The position numbers and the translations under genes are program-made. Under the pieces are notes generated by a model. That model worked only from the letters and a program-made list of their open reading frames with translations. It did not search any database and was not told where the DNA came from. From Frigoribacterium faeni (GTDB lineage Bacteria > Actinomycetota > Actinomycetes > Actinomycetales > Microbacteriaceae): a DNA stretch of 64,000 bases. Shown here piece by piece: positions 11,149-62,108 of the stretch. Where the stretch lies: assembly GCF_011761235.1 (NCBI RefSeq), contig NZ_JAAOYW010000002.1, positions 868,001-932,000 of the forward strand, read 5' to 3'. Each line of letters starts with the position of its first letter. Position 1 is the first letter of the stretch.

Positions 11149-11925
11149 TCAGCCCCCGATCCCGGCGGCGGCCAGCGAGGCGGGCGGGCCGTCCGCGAGG
11201 GGCTGCCACGAGTCGAAGACGCCGTACGCGACGATGCGCTCGCGCGCCGAGAACATGGGGTTGCAGCTGGTGAGGGTGATGAGGCGCTCCCCGGAGGCGG
11301 CGGTCACGTCGGGCGCGTCCGGCACCGGCTGCAGCACCGAGACCTGGGTCGCCTGCACGTACTGGAGGTTGCGGAACCGGTAGGTGTACCAGCCGTCGGC
11401 GGTCTGGACGACGATCTCGTCGCCGGGCCGCAGGTCGGCCACGGCGTTGAACGGGGCGCCGTACGTCGTGCGGTGCGCGGCGATGCCGAAGTTGCCGACC
11501 TCGCCCGGCATCTGCGTCTCGTCGTAGTGCCCGATGCCGATCTTGTTGAGGGTGCGCACCGTGCTGGTGCCGCCGCCGATCGGCACGGCGTAGTCGGCCC
11601 CGAACCGGGGCACGTAGAGGTTGCCGAAGGCCTGGCCGTCGGCGGGCGCGGCCGTCACCGGCGGATCGCCGGCCGGGTCGGTCGTCGCGGGGGGCGCCTC
11701 CGCCGACTGCTGCTCGAGCTGCTGCGAGAGCTGCGACGCCTGGTCGCGGTGCTCGTCGGCGACGACGAGGTCGTTGAACCACTGCTGCCACGCGATGAAG
11801 AGCAGGACGAGCACGCCGGCCGTGATGAGCAGCTCGCCGAGCACCCCGACGACGGTCACCCGGGGGCGGCTGCGCCGACGGCGGCGGCGGGCGCCTGCCG
11901 GGGCGGGGCGCGCGTCGACGGTCAT
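11149..11925 (-). CDS. srtE: Class E sortase
   Basis: This 258-aa protein has an Arg-rich N-terminus, a membrane segment (about 25-45), a linker and a sortase domain. The catalytic triad is visible as His in IAAHRTTYG (about 149), Cys in TLTSCNP (about 221) and Arg in ARERIV (about 230). Class E sortases of high-GC actinobacteria join proteins with LAxTG signals to the wall. Two proteins with such signals are encoded here (LAFTG in the 54276-57047 protein, LAYTG in the 58338-59645 protein), so they are likely substrates. Confidence 0.93.
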   Translation of the reverse strand: MTVDARPAPAGARRRRRRSRPRVTVVGVLGELLITAGVLVLLFIAWQQWFNDLVVADEHRDQASQLSQQLEQQSAEAPPATTDPAGDPPVTAAPADGQAFGNLYVPRFGADYAVPIGGGTSTVRTLNKIGIGHYDETQMPGEVGNFGIAAHRTTYGAPFNAVADLRPGDEIVVQTADGWYTYRFRNLQYVQATQVSVLQPVPDAPDVTAASGERLITLTSCNPMFSARERIVAYGVFDSWQPLADGPPASLAAAGIGG

Positions 11926-53098: not shown

Positions 53099-54154
53099 AT
53101 GACCGACCTCCCCGCCCGCACCCGCTACGCCACCGTCGACGCCGAGCGCTCGGTCGCCCTCGCCGAGGCCGACCTCGCGGCCCCCACCGGCCAGCAGGTC
53201 GTGGTGCGCATCCGCTACACCGGCGTCTGCGCCACGGACACGCACGGGTGGGCGTCCGGCGGGCTCATCCCCGCCGCGGTGTTCGGCCACGAGTGGACCG
53301 GCACCGTCGTCGCCGCCGGCGACCAGGTGACCACCGTCGCCGTGGGCGACCGCGTCGTCGCCAGCGTCGGACCGCCCTGCGGCACCTGCGCCATGTGCCG
53401 CGCCGGACACCCCGCCCACTGCGACACCGCGTTCGCCGAGGCCAACGGCGTCTCGCCCGACGCCCCGGAGCACGGCGCCTTCGCCCAGCACGTCACCGTC
53501 CACGAGCGCCGCGTCCAGCGCGCCCTCGACGGCCTCAGCGACGAACAGCTCGGCCTCGTCGAGCCCACCGCCGTCACGTTCCACGCGGTCCGCCGCGCCG
53601 GCCAGCGCCTCGGCTCCGTCGTCGTGGTCCAGGGCGCCGGCCCCATCGGCCTGCTCACCGCCCAGCACGCCCGCCACTCCGGCGCCGGAGCCGTCGTCAT
53701 CGTCGAGCCCATGGAGGCGCGGCGCGAGACCGCGCGCCGCCTCGGCTTCACCGACGTCCACGCACCCGGAGACGCGTTCCGCGCCCGCGTCCTCGAGCTG
53801 ACGGACGGGCTGGGGGCGGACGTCCTCTACGAGTGCACCGGCGCCTCCTCGTTGTTCCAGTCCAGCGCCGAGCTGGTCCGCCGCGGCGGCACGCTCGCCC
53901 TGCTCGGGTACCCGATGACCAGCTCCGAGGTGTCGTACGGAGACTGGCAGAGCCGCGAGCTCACCGTGATCGGCAGCCTCGCCTACACGCACTCGGACTT
54001 CGTCGGGGCGATGCGCGCGCTCGCCGACGGCTCCGTCGACGCGGCCCCGCTGATCACCGGCACCGTCGGCCTCGACGACCTGCCCGCCCTGCTCGCTGAG
54101 CTCGACAGCGGCGAGACCCGGCACGCCAAGGTGCTCGTCGCGCCCAACGGCTGA
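53099..54154 (+). CDS. Zinc-dependent medium-chain dehydrogenase (polyol/threonine dehydrogenase-like)
   Basis: This 351-aa protein has YTGVCATDTHGW, FGHEWTGTVVAAG, the structural zinc loop CGTCAMCRAGHPAHC and the NAD motif GAGPIGLLTAQHA. It belongs to the polyol or threonine dehydrogenase-like branch. The exact substrate is unclear. It is a single gene ended by a strong hairpin. Confidence 0.9.
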   Translation: MTDLPARTRYATVDAERSVALAEADLAAPTGQQVVVRIRYTGVCATDTHGWASGGLIPAAVFGHEWTGTVVAAGDQVTTVAVGDRVVASVGPPCGTCAMCRAGHPAHCDTAFAEANGVSPDAPEHGAFAQHVTVHERRVQRALDGLSDEQLGLVEPTAVTFHAVRRAGQRLGSVVVVQGAGPIGLLTAQHARHSGAGAVVIVEPMEARRETARRLGFTDVHAPGDAFRARVLELTDGLGADVLYECTGASSLFQSSAELVRRGGTLALLGYPMTSSEVSYGDWQSRELTVIGSLAYTHSDFVGAMRALADGSVDAAPLITGTVGLDDLPALLAELDSGETRHAKVLVAPNG

Positions 54155-54217
54155 CGCTGGGGCGCGGGCGCCGAGCGACCGACCCGGGGCGCCCCGGGTT
54201 GGTCGAGGGTCCAGGGG

Positions 54218-54263
54218 ACGACGAGGCCCCCGCCGCTCGGGTGAGCGGCGGGGGCCTCGTCGT
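54218..54263. terminator. Bidirectional terminator between two convergent genes
   Basis: A 21-bp perfect stem starting ACGACGAGGCCCCCG (54218-54238) pairs across the loop GGGT (54239-54242) with 54243-54263. It lies between the convergent dehydrogenase and GH70-like genes. Confidence 0.9.
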
Positions 54264-54275
54264 GTTCAGCTGCTG

Positions 54276-57047
54276 CTAGAGCGCACGCCGGCGGCGGCGG
54301 CTCCAGACCAGCGCCGCGGCGCCGAGGGCGAGCAGCAGGGCCGCCGCCGCCACGAACGCGGCGGTCTGGGCACCCGTGAACGCGAGGCTGCCGGCGGGGG
54401 AGGCGGCGCTCGCCGTGCCCGCGTCGGTGCCCGAGTCGGCGAGGCCGGTCGTGCCGCCCGCCGGGGTGCTGCCGGTCGCCGGCGTGGTGCCGCCGACCGG
54501 TGTCGTGCCGTCGGCGGGGCTCGTGCCGCCGCCGACCGGGGCGGTGCCGTCGGCGGGCGCGGTGCCGCCGCCGGGCGTCGTGCCCGGGTCGCCGGGCACG
54601 GCGGCCGCGACGACGGTCAGCACGCTCGCGGGCGAGGTGCTGCCCAGGTGGCGCTCGTCGCCCGAGTACACCGCGGTGATCGAGTGCTCGCCCACGGCCA
54701 GGTCGGCCGGGGTGGTGAGCACTGCGCGGCCGTCGACCAGCTCGGCCGTGCCCAGCGACACGGCGCCGTCGAGGAACTCGACGCTGCCCGTCGCCCCGTC
54801 GGCCTGCGACGAGACCTCGGCGGCGAGCTCGGTGGTCTCGCCCTCCGTGATCGAGGAGGCGGCGGCCACGACGGCCGTGGAGGTCTCGGCCGGCTGCGCG
54901 GGGACCCACGCGGCCAGGTAGCCGTTCACCTCGACGGTCCGCGTGCCCTGCACGGGCACGGTGAGGACGCCGTCGGCGTCGGTGGTCAGGGTCTCGCCGT
55001 GGTAGCCGAGGGCGTCGACGTACTCCTGGTCGGCGTGCTCGGCCCCCATCGCGACCTCGACGGTGGTGTCGAGGTCGGGCTGGTTGCCGACGACGACGCC
55101 GACACCCGTCTCGCGGTCGCTGCCGGCGCGGACGCTCGAGATGAGGTCCTGGCCGGGCGTGCTCGAGAGGTTCGACTCGTGCAGGGTGACCGTCTGCTCG
55201 CCCGAGACGTTCTGCTCACGCATCTGCAGCAGGGCCGTGATGGCGTCGTGGTACGGCGACTCGGTCGTCATGTACGAGGCGTCGGCCTCCCACATGTCGC
55301 CGTAGAACACGGTCGGGACGGTGTCCTGGTTCGTGAGCATCAGGGCGTACGACGCGGGCACGTTGTAGGGCGCGTGCTGCTTGTCGACCGTCGCGCGGTC
55401 GGCCGTGTAGATCTCGTACTGCGCGAGCTGGAACTCCTTGGTGCCGTACGGGAACCCGCCGGCCTGCTCGGCCGTGAGGGAGATCTTCGCCATGTCGTTG
55501 TGCTCGGTGTCGTGGTTCGTCACGAACGACCAGTTCGGGATGACCGTGTCGGTCGAGCCGGTGCCCGTGCGGTCCTTGTACGAGTTCGTCACGACCGTGC
55601 TCAGGGGCTTCGACGGGTCGCCCTCGCCGAGGGCGTCGAAGTAGGCGTAGTGCAGCTCGTCGTCGTAGGCGAGCTGGCCGTTGCCGGTGCCGTTCAGGAA
55701 CGGCACCTGCTCGTCGACGTACGACTCGATGAAGTTGAGGTGGCTGAGCTGGTCGTCGCCGTAGCGCTCGGCGAACAGGTCGGCCGACTGCTCGAGGATC
55801 TCCTTGTTGTAGTGCCCGGCGGCGTCGAAGCGGAAGCCGTCGAAGCCGTACTCGTCGAGGAGGAACTCCTCCCAGTTGCGGTGCTCGGCCTGCACGGCGG
55901 CGGACGAGTTGTCGACGTCCTGGCCGAGCAGGAACTCGGACTGGATGAGGTTCTCGTTGACGCCGCTGGTGTCGTCGTCGAAGCGGAGGGCGGTGATGCC
56001 CTGCTCGGACCTCGACGAGTACCCCGGCTGGAGGCCGATGTAGTCGTTCGTCGCGTTCTGCGCCTCCGAGTCGGTGACGGCGACCAGAGCGGCACGCACC
56101 TCGTCGTCGGTGGCGTCCGGACCGCCTCCGTAGCCTCGCTCGCGCATGTAGTCGAGGTAGGTCTGCGTGATCGCGCCGGGCTGGTTCTCGGTGTAGCCGA
56201 GCAGCAGCGAGCGCCACACGGCGCCGCGGTCGTCGTGGGCGACGGCGTAGTAGCCGTCGACGGTCAGGTAGCCGTCGATGGCGTTGATCTCGCCGTAGCG
56301 CTGGGCGTCGGTGGCGGCGAGCCACTCGGGCAGGTAGTTGCGCTCGTCGTCGGCGCCGAAGTAGCGGTACGGCTCGCCCGCGGGGTCGAGCATGACCCGG
56401 TCGGTGCCGATGTCCTGCGTCGAGATGCCGTTGAGGTCGGCGCTGCTCCACTGCGGGAACGTGCCGTACTTCTGCTGGCCGGCCGCGCTGCCCTTCGTGT
56501 ACACCTCGTAGAGCTTGTTCACGACCTTCGGGTTGTCGGGCGTGCCCCACTGGTTGACGGCGGTGACGCGCACGACCTCGCGGTCCTGGTAGTTGTAGAT
56601 CTGGTTCGGCACGATGTCGGCCTGGACGCTCATCCCGGCGTCGTGCATCGCCGCGATCGCGGCCTTGAGCTCGTCGCTCGTGCCGTACTTCGTGGCCGTC
56701 GCTCCGCCGTGGCCGGCGGGGAACTCGCCGAGGTCGTAGCGGTCGGTGATCGCGTAGCCCTCTTCGTTGTAGGCGTTCAGCGCGCGGGACGCCGGGGCGG
56801 TCCACACGTCGGTGACGCCGAGGTCGGCGAGCTCCTCCGCACGCGCGGCGAGCGTCGTGTAGGTGTCGCTCTCGTAGGGCTGGTAGAAGCTGAAGTCCTG
56901 GAAGATGACTCGGCTGTCGAGGGCTTCGCCGGAGACGAAGGTGGGGCTCTCGACGCTGCCGGCAGCCTGGGCTGACGGGGCGGCGAGGGTGCCGACGAGG
57001 GCGACGAGCGCACAGGTCGACAGGGCGAACGGCAGGGGTCTGCGCAC
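54276..57047 (-). CDS. Secreted, wall-anchored GH70-like glucanotransferase with non-permuted domain order
   Basis: This 923-aa protein starts at a GTG. It has a signal peptide (about 1-29), a catalytic domain (about 45-715), an Ig-like domain (about 722-812), a Gly/Pro/Thr-rich linker and an LAFTG sorting signal at 888-892 with membrane segment and Arg tail. Motif I reads ADIVPNQ (Asp144, and Gln149 where GH13 has His), motif II FDGFRFDAAG (nucleophile Asp408), motif III FIES (Glu441) and motif IV VTNHD (Asp513). The order I-II-III-IV is GH13-like. The Gln in motif I and the region YALMLTN, VFYGDM, YLAAWVPA are GH70-like. The likely role is remodelling of alpha-glucan or sucrose outside the cell. 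The substrate is not certain. Confidence 0.8.
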   Translation of the reverse strand: MRRPLPFALSTCALVALVGTLAAPSAQAAGSVESPTFVSGEALDSRVIFQDFSFYQPYESDTYTTLAARAEELADLGVTDVWTAPASRALNAYNEEGYAITDRYDLGEFPAGHGGATATKYGTSDELKAAIAAMHDAGMSVQADIVPNQIYNYQDREVVRVTAVNQWGTPDNPKVVNKLYEVYTKGSAAGQQKYGTFPQWSSADLNGISTQDIGTDRVMLDPAGEPYRYFGADDERNYLPEWLAATDAQRYGEINAIDGYLTVDGYYAVAHDDRGAVWRSLLLGYTENQPGAITQTYLDYMRERGYGGGPDATDDEVRAALVAVTDSEAQNATNDYIGLQPGYSSRSEQGITALRFDDDTSGVNENLIQSEFLLGQDVDNSSAAVQAEHRNWEEFLLDEYGFDGFRFDAAGHYNKEILEQSADLFAERYGDDQLSHLNFIESYVDEQVPFLNGTGNGQLAYDDELHYAYFDALGEGDPSKPLSTVVTNSYKDRTGTGSTDTVIPNWSFVTNHDTEHNDMAKISLTAEQAGGFPYGTKEFQLAQYEIYTADRATVDKQHAPYNVPASYALMLTNQDTVPTVFYGDMWEADASYMTTESPYHDAITALLQMREQNVSGEQTVTLHESNLSSTPGQDLISSVRAGSDRETGVGVVVGNQPDLDTTVEVAMGAEHADQEYVDALGYHGETLTTDADGVLTVPVQGTRTVEVNGYLAAWVPAQPAETSTAVVAAASSITEGETTELAAEVSSQADGATGSVEFLDGAVSLGTAELVDGRAVLTTPADLAVGEHSITAVYSGDERHLGSTSPASVLTVVAAAVPGDPGTTPGGGTAPADGTAPVGGGTSPADGTTPVGGTTPATGSTPAGGTTGLADSGTDAGTASAASPAGSLAFTGAQTAAFVAAAALLLALGAAALVWSRRRRRAL

Positions 57048-57269
57048 GGGATCCGATCGGGGTAGGGTCCGCCGCACGCCCGGGGCCGGGCGCACGGACA
57101 ACCGGCACCACGGGGGGAGGGGTAAGCAGCTCCCGGGGTGTTCCGGCCCGGTCGACCCTAGGTGCCCGTCGGCGTGCCGGTCCCCGGAAAGGGGGACACG
57201 GGCCCAGGACCACCCCTTCTCCCACCCGTTCGGCGACACCTGCTGATCATCTCGGGTCGCGGGTGGGGC

Positions 57270-57623
57270 TCAGAGCGGGGCTGCCCCGGACAGGTCGGAC
57301 CGTCGGACGTCCGTCCGGGTCGTGTCGAGGGGCTCGGTCGTGCTGCGGAGCCCGCCGTTGGAGTTCGCCAGGGCCGACAGCTGCTCGATCCACGCGGCGT
57401 TGAGGGACGGCATCCTGTTGCCGGCGAACTTGAAGCGCAGGGTCACCGTCGGGTGCAGCCAGATCGTGCTGCGGCCGGAGCCGGTGCTCGTGGGCTCGAT
57501 CCACGAGAACGGGAAGGACTCGCCCCGCCTCAGCTTGTGCAGGATCACCATCTGGAGGTGCGCGAGGGCTCGGTCGTCGATCTCGACCGACGCGCTGTGG
57601 TCGCCGTAGTGCAGGTGTCCCAT
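57270..57623 (-). CDS. Small protein of a Microbacteriaceae-type family (DUF7882-like), copy 2
   Basis: This 117-aa protein starts at an ATG with GAGG upstream. It reads MGHLHYGDHSASVEIDDRAL, then HLQMVILHKLRRGESFPFSW and IWLHPTVTLRFKF. It is a clear paralogue of the 47779-48102 protein, sharing MGxLxY, VE[IF]DDR, KLRR, FSW and ANSN. Function is unknown. It lies between the GH70-like gene and the MarR gene. Confidence 0.75.
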   Translation of the reverse strand: MGHLHYGDHSASVEIDDRALAHLQMVILHKLRRGESFPFSWIEPTSTGSGRSTIWLHPTVTLRFKFAGNRMPSLNAAWIEQLSALANSNGGLRSTTEPLDTTRTDVRRSDLSGAAPL

Positions 57624-57740
57624 GAGGGCCTCGAGTCCCGGCGCGCCCCCAGGGGTCGGGTGCCGAGGTCGGGGGCGACCACGGGCCAAGCTAGGTGCCT
57701 TGTGCCCCTGCCGCAAGAGGCGAGGGTCAGGTCGTCAGTC

Positions 57741-58337: not shown

Positions 58338-59645
58338 TCAGCTGTCGGAGCGGGCGAGACGGCGTCTGCGGACGGCGGACGCTACCACGAGGGTCGTGCC
58401 GGCCAGCAGCGCGAGGACCGCGCCCAGGGCGGGCAGCGTGTCGTCGGAGCCCGTGTAGGCGAGGTCGCCGCCGAGGCCGCGGCCCTGTCCGCCCGCGCGG
58501 TCCGCGGCGGGGACCACCGGGGTCGTCGAGCCGGGGGTCGTCGAGCCGGGGGGCACCGTGCCGCCGGGGGTCGTTCCGCCCGGTGTGGTGCCGCCGCCGT
58601 CGCCGGGCACGGGCACGACGGCTGCCGGCGTGACCGTGATCGTGTACGTCTCGCTGTCCGCCGGGGCGGTGCCGTTGTCGGCGGTGACGGTGAAGGTCGA
58701 GTCTCCCGGGGTGGTGGGCGTGCCGGAGACGACGCCCGTCTCGCCGTCGAGCACGAGGCCGGCGGGCAGCGTGCCCGCGGTCACCGAGAAGCCGATGTCG
58801 GGCGTGCCGCTCGCGGTGACGGTGAACGAGTAGCCGGTCCCCTGCGTGGCGGCGGGCGGGCTGCCCGAGGTGATGGTGGGCGCGACGGTCTCGGAGGGGG
58901 TGCCGACCGTGGGGCAGGGCGGCGGCACGGTGATCACGTTCGTGTCGAGGGTGACGGCGCCGGTGCGGGCCAGGAGGCGGCCGATGACGGTCGCGCCGGT
59001 CGTCGCCGTGACGGAGGTCTGCGCCAGGACGGTGCCGCGGAACTGTGCGCCGTCGAGGATGGTGGCCGAGCTGCCGACCTGCCAGAACACGTTGCACGCG
59101 CTGGCCCCGCCGGAGAAGGTCATCGTCGTGCCGCTGCCGATGGTGAGCGTGCTCGACGCCTGGATCACCCACACCGAGCGGTCGGACCCGGCGAAGGCCA
59201 GGTCGCCGTTCTCGGCGAGCTGGACGGCGTCGCCGCGGTAGACGCCGGGCGAGAGCGAGCGGCCGTCGAGGTCGATCACGCCCTCCTCCTGCGGGGTCAG
59301 GCTCGCGGCGACCCCGTAGGCCGTCGTGAGGTCGCCCTGAGCCAGCTGGGCCGACTCGTCGTCGACGTGCGTCTCGCCGCCGACGATGACGCCGGGACCG
59401 CCGTCGAAGCCGGTGATGTCCGTGCCCGGGCTGAGGCCGACGTCGCCGGTGACGACGCTGGTGCCGGTGTTGGTCACCGTGCTGGCGCCGAGCACGGCGT
59501 ACGACGACGCGGTGCCGAGGTCGACGGGGCCGTCGATCACGGTGTCGGCGTGGGCCGGGACGGCGGAGGCCACGGCCAGGGCGGCGCTGACGCCCAGGAC
59601 GAGGCCCGCGCGGGCGAAGAGGGCAGAGGACGTCGTGCGGGCCAT
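58338..59645 (-). CDS. Ice-binding (DUF3494) cell-surface protein with LAYTG anchor
   Basis: This 435-aa protein has a signal peptide (about 1-33), a DUF3494 ice-binding-like domain (about 40-255, TASSYAVLGASTVTNTG, TGDVGLSPG, GNVFWQVG-type segment), an Ig-like domain (PAGLVLDGETGVVSGTPT), a Gly/Pro/Thr linker and a wall anchor LAYTG at about 395-399 with membrane segment and Arg tail. DUF3494 proteins bind ice or stick to surfaces. The ATG at 59645 has AGGTG upstream. Sortase E at 11149 is the likely anchoring enzyme. Confidence 0.92.
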   Translation of the reverse strand: MARTTSSALFARAGLVLGVSAALAVASAVPAHADTVIDGPVDLGTASSYAVLGASTVTNTGTSVVTGDVGLSPGTDITGFDGGPGVIVGGETHVDDESAQLAQGDLTTAYGVAASLTPQEEGVIDLDGRSLSPGVYRGDAVQLAENGDLAFAGSDRSVWVIQASSTLTIGSGTTMTFSGGASACNVFWQVGSSATILDGAQFRGTVLAQTSVTATTGATVIGRLLARTGAVTLDTNVITVPPPCPTVGTPSETVAPTITSGSPPAATQGTGYSFTVTASGTPDIGFSVTAGTLPAGLVLDGETGVVSGTPTTPGDSTFTVTADNGTAPADSETYTITVTPAAVVPVPGDGGGTTPGGTTPGGTVPPGSTTPGSTTPVVPAADRAGGQGRGLGGDLAYTGSDDTLPALGAVLALLAGTTLVVASAVRRRRLARSDS

Positions 59646-59719
59646 GGCGGCACCTGACTGAGAAGAGGAGGCACCTGGCTGCACGTGTTCGGAACGTGCG
59701 GGTGATCCCCGTTAACTGA

Positions 59720-60498: not shown

Positions 60499-60804
60499 TC
60501 AGGCGTCGATGTCGAAGACGACGATCCGCGCGGAGGAGTCGCCGAGGTAGCCCGCCACCGGCAGGTGCGCGGGGTGCGGCAGGTACGCCTCGAGGGAGGC
60601 GCGGTCGCGGAACCGCACGACGAGCATCCAGTCGAAGCCGGCCTCGAGGTGCTCGGTGCCGATGCTCGGGCCGCTCGAGACGGACAGGACGCCGTCGATC
60701 GTCGTCAGCTTCTCGTCGGAGAGCCGCGTCGCCTCGGCGGCGGCGTCGACGCCCTCGTTCCACTCGGCCAGCACCACGTGCAGCACCTCGGTCGTCTCGG
60801 CCAT
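60499..60804 (-). CDS. Dabb domain (stress-responsive alpha/beta barrel) protein
   Basis: This 101-aa protein has the Dabb pattern LHVVLAEWNEGVD, SSGPSIG, FDWMLVVRFRDRASLEAYLPHPAH. Such proteins dimerise into a ferredoxin-like barrel. The role is often unknown. The ATG at 60804 was chosen because similarity starts there; a longer frame upstream has no conserved residues. Confidence 0.88.
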   Translation of the reverse strand: MAETTEVLHVVLAEWNEGVDAAAEATRLSDEKLTTIDGVLSVSSGPSIGTEHLEAGFDWMLVVRFRDRASLEAYLPHPAHLPVAGYLGDSSARIVVFDIDA

Positions 60805-60943
60805 GTCGTGTTCCTCTCGTCGGCGACCGGGGAACGGCCGCAGGGACCAGCCTGGCCCTCGAGGAGGCGCGACGCGCGTCCGCGACGTCAGGTCACGAAC
60901 CGACATCGGAGCCTCACAGGTCTTCCCAAGAGACCCGCCATCA

Positions 60944-61067: not shown

Positions 61068-62108
61068 GTGAAGCAGTCCCGCATCTTCTCCGTCGCCGTG
61101 GCGTCCGCCGCGGTCGTCGGTTCGGTCGTCGCCGTCTCCGGCACGGCCAGCGCCGCGTTCGACCCCGAGGGCGCCTTCCGCGTCACCACCAACGCGGACC
61201 TCAGCCAGGAGACCCCCGGCCAGGCGTACCCGACGGACAGCGAGTCCGGCTGGTTCACGGGCGCCGTGGCGGCCCCGGCCGGCACGGTCACCTTCGACGG
61301 CGCCGGGCTCAACTCGGCCGGCGGCAACGTCCAGCTGCTGAACGCCTACACCGCCGACGCCAGCACCCTCACCGACCTCGTCGTCGACGCCGCGTTCGTC
61401 TCGGACGGCGACGCCACGTTCCAGGTGCCCCTCTACGCGAACGGCACCGGCACCGACACCGAGTTCACGACGCTGCGCCCCGCCGCGACCGGCGACGCCG
61501 GCTTCACCCCGGACAGCGACTGGGTCACCTCGCAGGCCTTCGGCACCTACGCCGCCGGCGACACCGCCACGCTCGCCGAGTTCCAGGCCGAGGTCACGGC
61601 GATCGACGCCGCCGGCGACCAGACCGCCCCGGCGACCATCCTCGGCTACGGCTTCATCACCCCCTCGCCGCTGACCTCGTCGGTCCAGGCCGTCGCGTTC
61701 GGTGACGAGAGCACCTGGTTCATCCCGGCTCCCACCGGCACCTACGTGCCCGCGACGCTCACCGTGACGCAGGTCAGCACGACCGGCATCACGGTCGACG
61801 GCGCCGGCTTCTTCCCGAACGAGACGCTCTCCGTGTTCTTCACGAGCGAGAACGCCCAGAGCTCCGGCGACCAGGACACCGTCCTCACCGCCGACGCCCA
61901 GGGCCGCATCGCGGGCACGGTCGTCATCCCCGCCGAGGACGTCCAGGGCCCCGGCACCTACAACATCGTCCTCGCCGGCAACGACTCGGGCGTGACCCTG
62001 GCGGGCGTCGTGACCGTCGTCGCCGACGACGCCGTCGTGCCGGTCCCGACCGCTCCGGTCGCGCCCGTCGCCACCCCGGTGCGCGCCAACGCCGCGTTCA
62101 CGGGCTAG
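61068..62108 (+). CDS. Secreted protein of unknown function ending in AFTG
   Basis: This 346-aa protein starts at a GTG with AGAAGGA 7 bases upstream. It has a signal peptide (about 1-29), a beta-rich, Thr/Ala/Asp-rich body with no cysteines in the visible sections and an Ig-like section near 230-325. The tail ends AAFTG right at the stop codon, so the membrane segment and Arg tail of a usual LAxTG anchor are missing. Function is unknown. It stands alone with a terminator after it. Confidence 0.75.
   Translation: MKQSRIFSVAVASAAVVGSVVAVSGTASAAFDPEGAFRVTTNADLSQETPGQAYPTDSESGWFTGAVAAPAGTVTFDGAGLNSAGGNVQLLNAYTADASTLTDLVVDAAFVSDGDATFQVPLYANGTGTDTEFTTLRPAATGDAGFTPDSDWVTSQAFGTYAAGDTATLAEFQAEVTAIDAAGDQTAPATILGYGFITPSPLTSSVQAVAFGDESTWFIPAPTGTYVPATLTVTQVSTTGITVDGAGFFPNETLSVFFTSENAQSSGDQDTVLTADAQGRIAGTVVIPAEDVQGPGTYNIVLAGNDSGVTLAGVVTVVADDAVVPVPTAPVAPVATPVRANAAFTG

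Follow-up and report, generated by a model that had tools for sequence, protein, structure and literature searches.

A predicted wall-anchored, non-permuted GH70 enzyme with GtfD-like marks in Frigoribacterium faeni

The window, that is, the whole 64,000-nucleotide stretch of Frigoribacterium faeni DNA analysed here, carries on its minus strand a gene whose product combines a predicted signal peptide, a GH70 core, one Ig-like domain and a C-terminal sorting signal (Table 1). A script located the four catalytic motifs in the order I-II-III-IV that is usual in GH13, with Asp144, Asp408, Glu441 and Asp513 in place, and with Gln149 in motif I where GH13 enzymes have His. These features, together with the Ig-like domain (Pfam Big_3_5, E 8.8e-19) and the LAFTG tail, had been described in a first-pass annotation made from the letters of the sequence, and all of them were confirmed. 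The seven GH70-invariant residues (Asp144, Gln149, Arg406, Asp408, Glu441, His512 and Asp513; compared with PMC5388325 Table 1 and PMC4919382) are all present. The neighbouring dehydrogenase gene (53099-54154) is convergent with the GH70 gene, and the perfect inverted repeat between them is likely to be a two-way terminator, though one lacking a T run. Scans of 54100-57400 for sigma-70-like promoters and T-run terminators found none, which is uninformative at 71% GC.

Table 1. Positions of the GH70 gene, its parts and associated features in the window
Feature	Position	Strand	Detail and basis
Inverted repeat in the gap separating the GH70 gene from the convergent dehydrogenase gene	54218..54263	.	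21-bp perfect repeat, 4-nt loop; repeat search
Non-permuted GH70 enzyme gene (GtfD-like alpha-glucanotransferase, predicted)	54276..57047	-	923 aa, GTG start
Predicted signal peptide	56961..57047	-	residues ~1-29, with Arg-Arg, a hydrophobic run and AQA-A; assigned by eye
GH70 core	54888..56951	-	residues 33-720; alignment with 7zc0 over 33-718
Motif I, ADIVPNQ	56601..56621	-	residues 143-149 (Asp144, Gln149); script
Motif II, GFRFDAAGH	55812..55838	-	residues 404-412 (Arg406, nucleophile Asp408, subsite +1 His412); script, roles from PMC5388325
Motif III, FIESYV	55716..55733	-	residues 439-444 (acid/base Glu441, alpha-glucanotransferase marker Tyr443); script, roles from PMC5388325 and PMC11299179
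Motif IV, NHDTEHN	55497..55517	-	residues 511-517 (transition-state Asp513, unusual Thr514, GtfD marker His516); script, roles from PMC5388325, PMC4919382 and PMC5216370
Ig-like domain Big_3_5	54612..54869	-	residues 727-812; Pfam profile
LAFTG sorting signal	54372..54386	-	residues 888-892, then hydrophobic stretch and Arg tail to 54279; pattern
Class E sortase, LAXTG recognition expected	11149..11925	-	246.9 bits, cut-off 160

The annotation had proposed a GH70-like rather than a GH13 enzyme, and profile searches, structural matches and a tree agree on this point. The top Pfam family was GH70 (PF02324, 238.3 bits against a cut-off of 24, E 2.1e-70); this match and that of the Ig-like domain are far beyond chance. 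The Pfam alpha-amylase family PF00128, which spans the clan, also scored above its cut-off (36.9 bits, cut-off 22), and it likewise matches the GH70 relatives L018, from a Nocardioides MAG, and L072 and L074, described below. The best PDB match was Geobacillus GtfC (7zc0, 551.6 bits), in one unbroken alignment over residues 33-718, and the next two chains, which are permuted, align in two swapped pieces; a two-sequence profile again ranked 7zc0 first, at 625.4 bits against 374.5 for the next chain. Together with the motif order, the unbroken alignment bears out the non-permuted form that had been claimed. Asp144 and Asp408 lie 264 residues apart, compared with 133 and 135 in two amylases, as would be expected if domain IV were inserted in domain B; the alignment to 7zc0 runs unbroken through that region. 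A structure prediction from a two-row alignment gave a mean pLDDT of 30 and was set aside.

A maximum-likelihood tree was built from 11 rows, comprising the GH70 gene product, L018, GbGtfC, three proteins from the order of genome G473, three reordered plasmid GH70s and two GH13 amylases. The nine GH70 rows were separated from the two amylases at 100/100, and the product formed a tight pair with L018, also at 100/100. Inside GH70, where the tree does not resolve the branching order, this pair falls weakly beside the permuted enzymes (80/87) rather than beside GtfC; no named GtfD is among the rows. The notion of an ordinary GH13 alpha-amylase with a chance similarity to glucansucrases draws on NCBIfam, in which the five best matches were all alpha-amylase PRK09441 models and no GH70 model appeared among the matches of the product. 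However, all five scores lay far below their cut-offs (best 180.6 against 382), whereas the Pfam GH70 score of 238.3 bits stands against a cut-off of 24, and motif I holds Gln instead of His in both the product and L018. A GH13 best match with His in close homologues had been named in advance as grounds for abandoning the GH70 reading, but the one close homologue found, L018 (66%), has Gln. With the tree split added, we rejected a GH13 identity as practically refuted on profiles, motifs and phylogeny.

Within GH70, the residue and loop marks point to the starch-acting enzymes. Tyr443 stands two positions after the acid/base Glu441, where Tyr marks alpha-glucanotransferases as opposed to sucrases (PMC11299179), and loop A2 comprises 10 residues in our alignment, short in comparison with the 16-21 of sucrases but one fewer than the number given as constant in alpha-glucanotransferases, 11 (PMC11299179). 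Because of these two marks, the product was classed as a probable alpha-glucanotransferase, with predicted action on starch and not on sucrose, and a sucrose-active reading was set aside. Further marks are those of GtfD. His516 occupies the fingerprint position of motif IV (HDTE-HN), which in Table 1 of PMC5388325 is His in all five GtfD rows and Lys in 8 of 8 GtfC and 6 of 8 GtfB rows. The loop A1 stretch spans 19 residues against 31 in GbGtfC, 12 fewer in a MAFFT alignment, and a short loop A1 is described as a GtfD trait tied to branched substrates and products (PMC9732880). For loop B, MAFFT gives a stretch of 12 residues against 19 in GbGtfC, seven fewer, although the phmmer alignment puts only three of these gaps within it. 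Identity to GbGtfC was 45.6% of 666 aligned positions, inside the range given for the GtfD group (40.4-49.9%) and below that for GtfC (52.9-76.3%; PMC9732880). Motifs I (ADIVPNQ) and II (GFRFDAAGHYN) are identical to those of a Burkholderia GtfD-like entry (PMC5388325).

By these residue and loop marks the product is most likely a GtfD-like enzyme. We call it GtfD-type, and not a member of GtfD, because the Gln that follows the transition-state Asp is replaced by Thr514 and because the tree holds no named GtfD sequence. The first-pass annotation had suggested that the enzyme may be a distinct subgroup. In the sense of standing outside the GtfC and GtfD kinds, this was not borne out: most GtfD marks are carried, and an F. 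faeni GtfD with one bIG domain has already been catalogued (PMC11299179). A weaker form of the idea survives in the tight pairing with L018 (100/100), the motif IV Thr and loops shorter than those of GtfC.

The residue after Asp513 is Thr514 in the product, and L018 also has Thr there. Of the 21 alpha-glucanotransferases in Table 1 of PMC5388325, 20 carry Gln at this position, and the remaining one, a 4,3-alpha-glucanotransferase tabulated as a GtfB, carries Ile; the Gln is reported as conserved across GtfB, GtfC and GtfD alike and not as GtfD-defining. Thr514 corresponds to Ser1137 of Gtf180, which contacts the +2 sugar and is described as the residue that chiefly determines linkage specificity (PMC4919382); PMC5216370 likewise singles out, for linkage, the residues one and four positions after the stabiliser. 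Thr514 and the 10-residue loop A2 make the linkage pattern less predictable than that of a standard GtfD, and owing to Thr514 the exact linkage mix is the least certain step of the mechanism.

These observations bring in a GtfD-like glucanotransferase of changed linkage, in which Thr514 at the +2 subsite would lead to alpha-1,3 bonds or to a mixture unlike that of known GtfDs. The correspondence with the main linkage determinant of Gtf180 (PMC4919382), the fact that the sole tabulated alpha-glucanotransferase without Gln there is a 4,3-enzyme (PMC5388325, PMC5216370) and the Thr common to L018 all speak for such a change. However, the differences of the 4,3-enzyme extend to motif II and to other positions of motif IV (PMC5388325, PMC5216370), where the product keeps the GtfD residues His412, His516 and Asn517, and a single literature search gave no paper on substitutions of the matching Gln in L. 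reuteri GtfB (Q1126, a number worked out from PMC5388325 Table 1). We consider a changed linkage possible but rather unlikely. Somewhat more speculatively, the product and L018 may represent an actinobacterial branch with a re-tuned +2 acceptor subsite, marked by a Thr in place of the Gln that follows the stabiliser, by short A1 and B loops and by a shortened A2, that makes a linkage pattern new for starch-acting GH70 enzymes, with the form in the window doing so while covalently fixed to the wall; we put this forward as a doubtful proposal.

The C-terminus of the product (LAFTG, a hydrophobic stretch and RRRRR) follows the LAXTG-type pattern of a class E sortase substrate, and LAXTG is the motif reported for class E sortases (PMC5148588). 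The window contains a gene for such a sortase; including it, the genome has three sortase-domain matches. The curated anchor models all scored below their cut-offs (Pfam Gram_pos_anchor 12.7 against 20; NCBIfam LPXTG_anchor 15.6 against 15.9, LAVTG 20.6 against 27 and LAXTG_small 20.9 against 65), so the predicted anchor is based on the LAXTG motif, the hydrophobic stretch, the Arg tail and the class E sortase in the window. From these we infer a surface location through that class of sortase. A scan of the window for the tail pattern returned the GH70 gene product, an ice-binding-like protein nearby (58338-59684, minus strand; PF11999 at 171.9 bits, a He_PIG domain and an LAYTG tail), which is likely a second class E sortase substrate, and one plus-strand open reading frame with its stop at 57403, which was discounted because its hydrophobic stretch is absent. 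Separately, a 346-aa open reading frame at 61068-62108 (plus strand), with no Pfam match, ends in NAAFTG, like a sorting signal cut before its membrane part. A thin literature search yielded no title on a wall-anchored, non-permuted GH70 enzyme; the word 'anchor' is absent from PMC9732880, and the main text of PMC11299179 touches on LPXTG, sortases or wall anchoring in a single mention, that of the MucBP domains of lactobacilli.

Taking these data together, we consider it probable that the gene product is a non-permuted, GtfD-type alpha-glucanotransferase of GH70 that is secreted, becomes anchored in the wall and acts on starch or maltodextrins; our confidence in this reading as a whole is slightly lowered by its weakly supported position in the tree and by a loop B length that depends on the alignment. 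Such an enzyme would work by double displacement, with Asp408 as the nucleophile, Glu441 as the acid/base and Asp513 as the stabiliser: it would break alpha-1,4 linkages of starch, maltodextrins or chains resembling glycogen, and pass a glucosyl or short maltosyl unit on to a second glucan chain instead of water. The product would be a branched, mixed-linkage alpha-glucan formed at the cell surface, where a class E sortase would have fixed the enzyme through LAFTG. Branching of the products is suggested by the short loop A1, and we would expect alpha-1,6 to be the main new bond and the enzyme to have a role in exopolysaccharide. An alternative, a surface amylase of GH70 descent that chiefly hydrolyses and so trims starch for uptake, would be compatible with the shorter loops A1 and B, which should open the groove in an amylase-like manner (loop roles from PMC9732880). 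Nevertheless, the motif I-IV residues common to GH70 alpha-glucanotransferases are kept, except for Gln at 514, and the residues of the product appear to favour transglycosylation; we regard a hydrolytic role as improbable.

We also examined how widely the enzyme occurs. Full-length relatives were found in one of the 16 genomes of the genus, the window's own, and this genome was again the only one with a full-length relative among 249 genomes drawn from the family (13 others with 29-41% identity over ~80-120 residues), 396 drawn from the order (7 others partial) and 396 drawn from the phylum (5 others partial). A scan of genome contigs gave a single relative, at 66%, on the Nocardioides MAG contig, and in the order of G473 GH70 proteins were present in 3 of 391 genomes, at 39-41% identity to the product. 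In these sampled scans at most two candidates were scored per genome (order, phylum and the order of G473) or at most four (family), so that weak relatives may have been missed, full-length ones less probably. Carriage by phages was set aside after a scan of viral contigs gave no relative, and carriage by plasmids after tblastn matched 103 plasmid records, all below 60% identity; the plasmid matches listed comprised GH70s from lactic acid bacteria, followed by weaker ones annotated as amylase or unannotated.

The genomic slot itself is variable. The GH70 gene was not found around the dehydrogenase gene in nine stretches from nine other genomes of the genus, of which one (L062) ends at a contig end ~2.3 kb past the dehydrogenase and another (L070) holds only the dehydrogenase end. 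Seven of the nine have, downstream of the dehydrogenase, a small gene that matches 60499-60906; the gap between the two ranges from ~80 bases to ~7.8 kb (6.3 kb in the window), and because this gap varies we regard the slot of the GH70 gene as variable. The GC3 of the gene is 0.978, and the eight genes measured span 0.919-0.988; recent import from a low-GC donor was discounted for want of any compositional sign, and since its GC3 resembles that of other window genes, any transfer would be old or from a high-GC donor. On the far side of the GH70 gene, a small protein without an NCBIfam match is encoded at 57270-57716 (minus strand) and has relatives in all 16 genomes of the genus, with one to nine matches each.

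Collectively, the enzyme at this locus is real and rare, and has probably been catalogued already; it shows two notable features and is not a new class. GtfD enzymes convert starch into branched, slowly digested glucans. A natural Thr at the strongest linkage-setting residue of glucansucrases offers a ready test of the same position in starch-acting enzymes, and the predicted covalent binding of a starch-acting GH70 enzyme to the wall would couple glucan synthesis with the cell surface in actinobacteria.

Among known relatives, the closest in description is F. faeni entry no. 251 of PMC11299179 (NIJ05635.1), a predicted, non-permuted GtfD with a single bIG_3 domain, like the product described here; it is probably this very protein or a near twin. 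Table 1 of that paper counts one Microbacteriaceae entry, as GtfD; the paper holds no discussion that we found of the motif IV residue of NIJ05635.1, and our literature search on Frigoribacterium glucanotransferases and Microbacteriaceae GH70s returned it alone. L018 (NZ_JAURVJ010000148.1) shares 66% core identity, HDTEHND, equally short loops and Big_3_5 with the product but, unlike it, has a longer linker, two Big_3_5 stretches and no visible LAXTG tail. The non-permuted GH70s L072, L073 and L074, the three from the order of G473, belong to three genomes of one family and carry GtfC-like marks (HDQE-K and a long loop A1), with EAY or ETY instead of ESY in motif III; L072 and L074, the two of the three that were scanned with Pfam, have five LGFP repeats each. 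In spite of their GtfC-like marks, these proteins resemble Propionibacteriaceae entries of PMC11299179, a paper in which the LGFP entries of that family are classed as GtfD.

The characterised GtfDs named in PMC5388325 and PMC9732880 are those of Azotobacter and Paenibacillus. The GtfDs of Azotobacter chroococcum and Paenibacillus beijingensis and the GtfD-like protein of Burkholderia sp. NFACC38-1 share with the product the order I-IV, the motif III Tyr and the motif IV His, but read HDQE-H where it reads HDTE-H (PMC5388325). The P. beijingensis and A. chroococcum enzymes are reported there without Ig2-like domains, whereas the product has one Big_3_5, and we found no mention of a wall anchor in PMC5388325. 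The 4,6-alpha-glucanotransferase GtfC of Geobacillus 12AMOR1 (7zc0; PMC9732880) has in common with the product a non-permuted core followed by C-terminal Ig-like domains. In GtfC, however, motif IV has Gln and Lys, and loops A1 and B are longer and form a tunnel, where the product has Thr, His and shorter loops, and GtfCs mostly bear two bIG_2 domains (PMC11299179) in place of its one Big_3_5.
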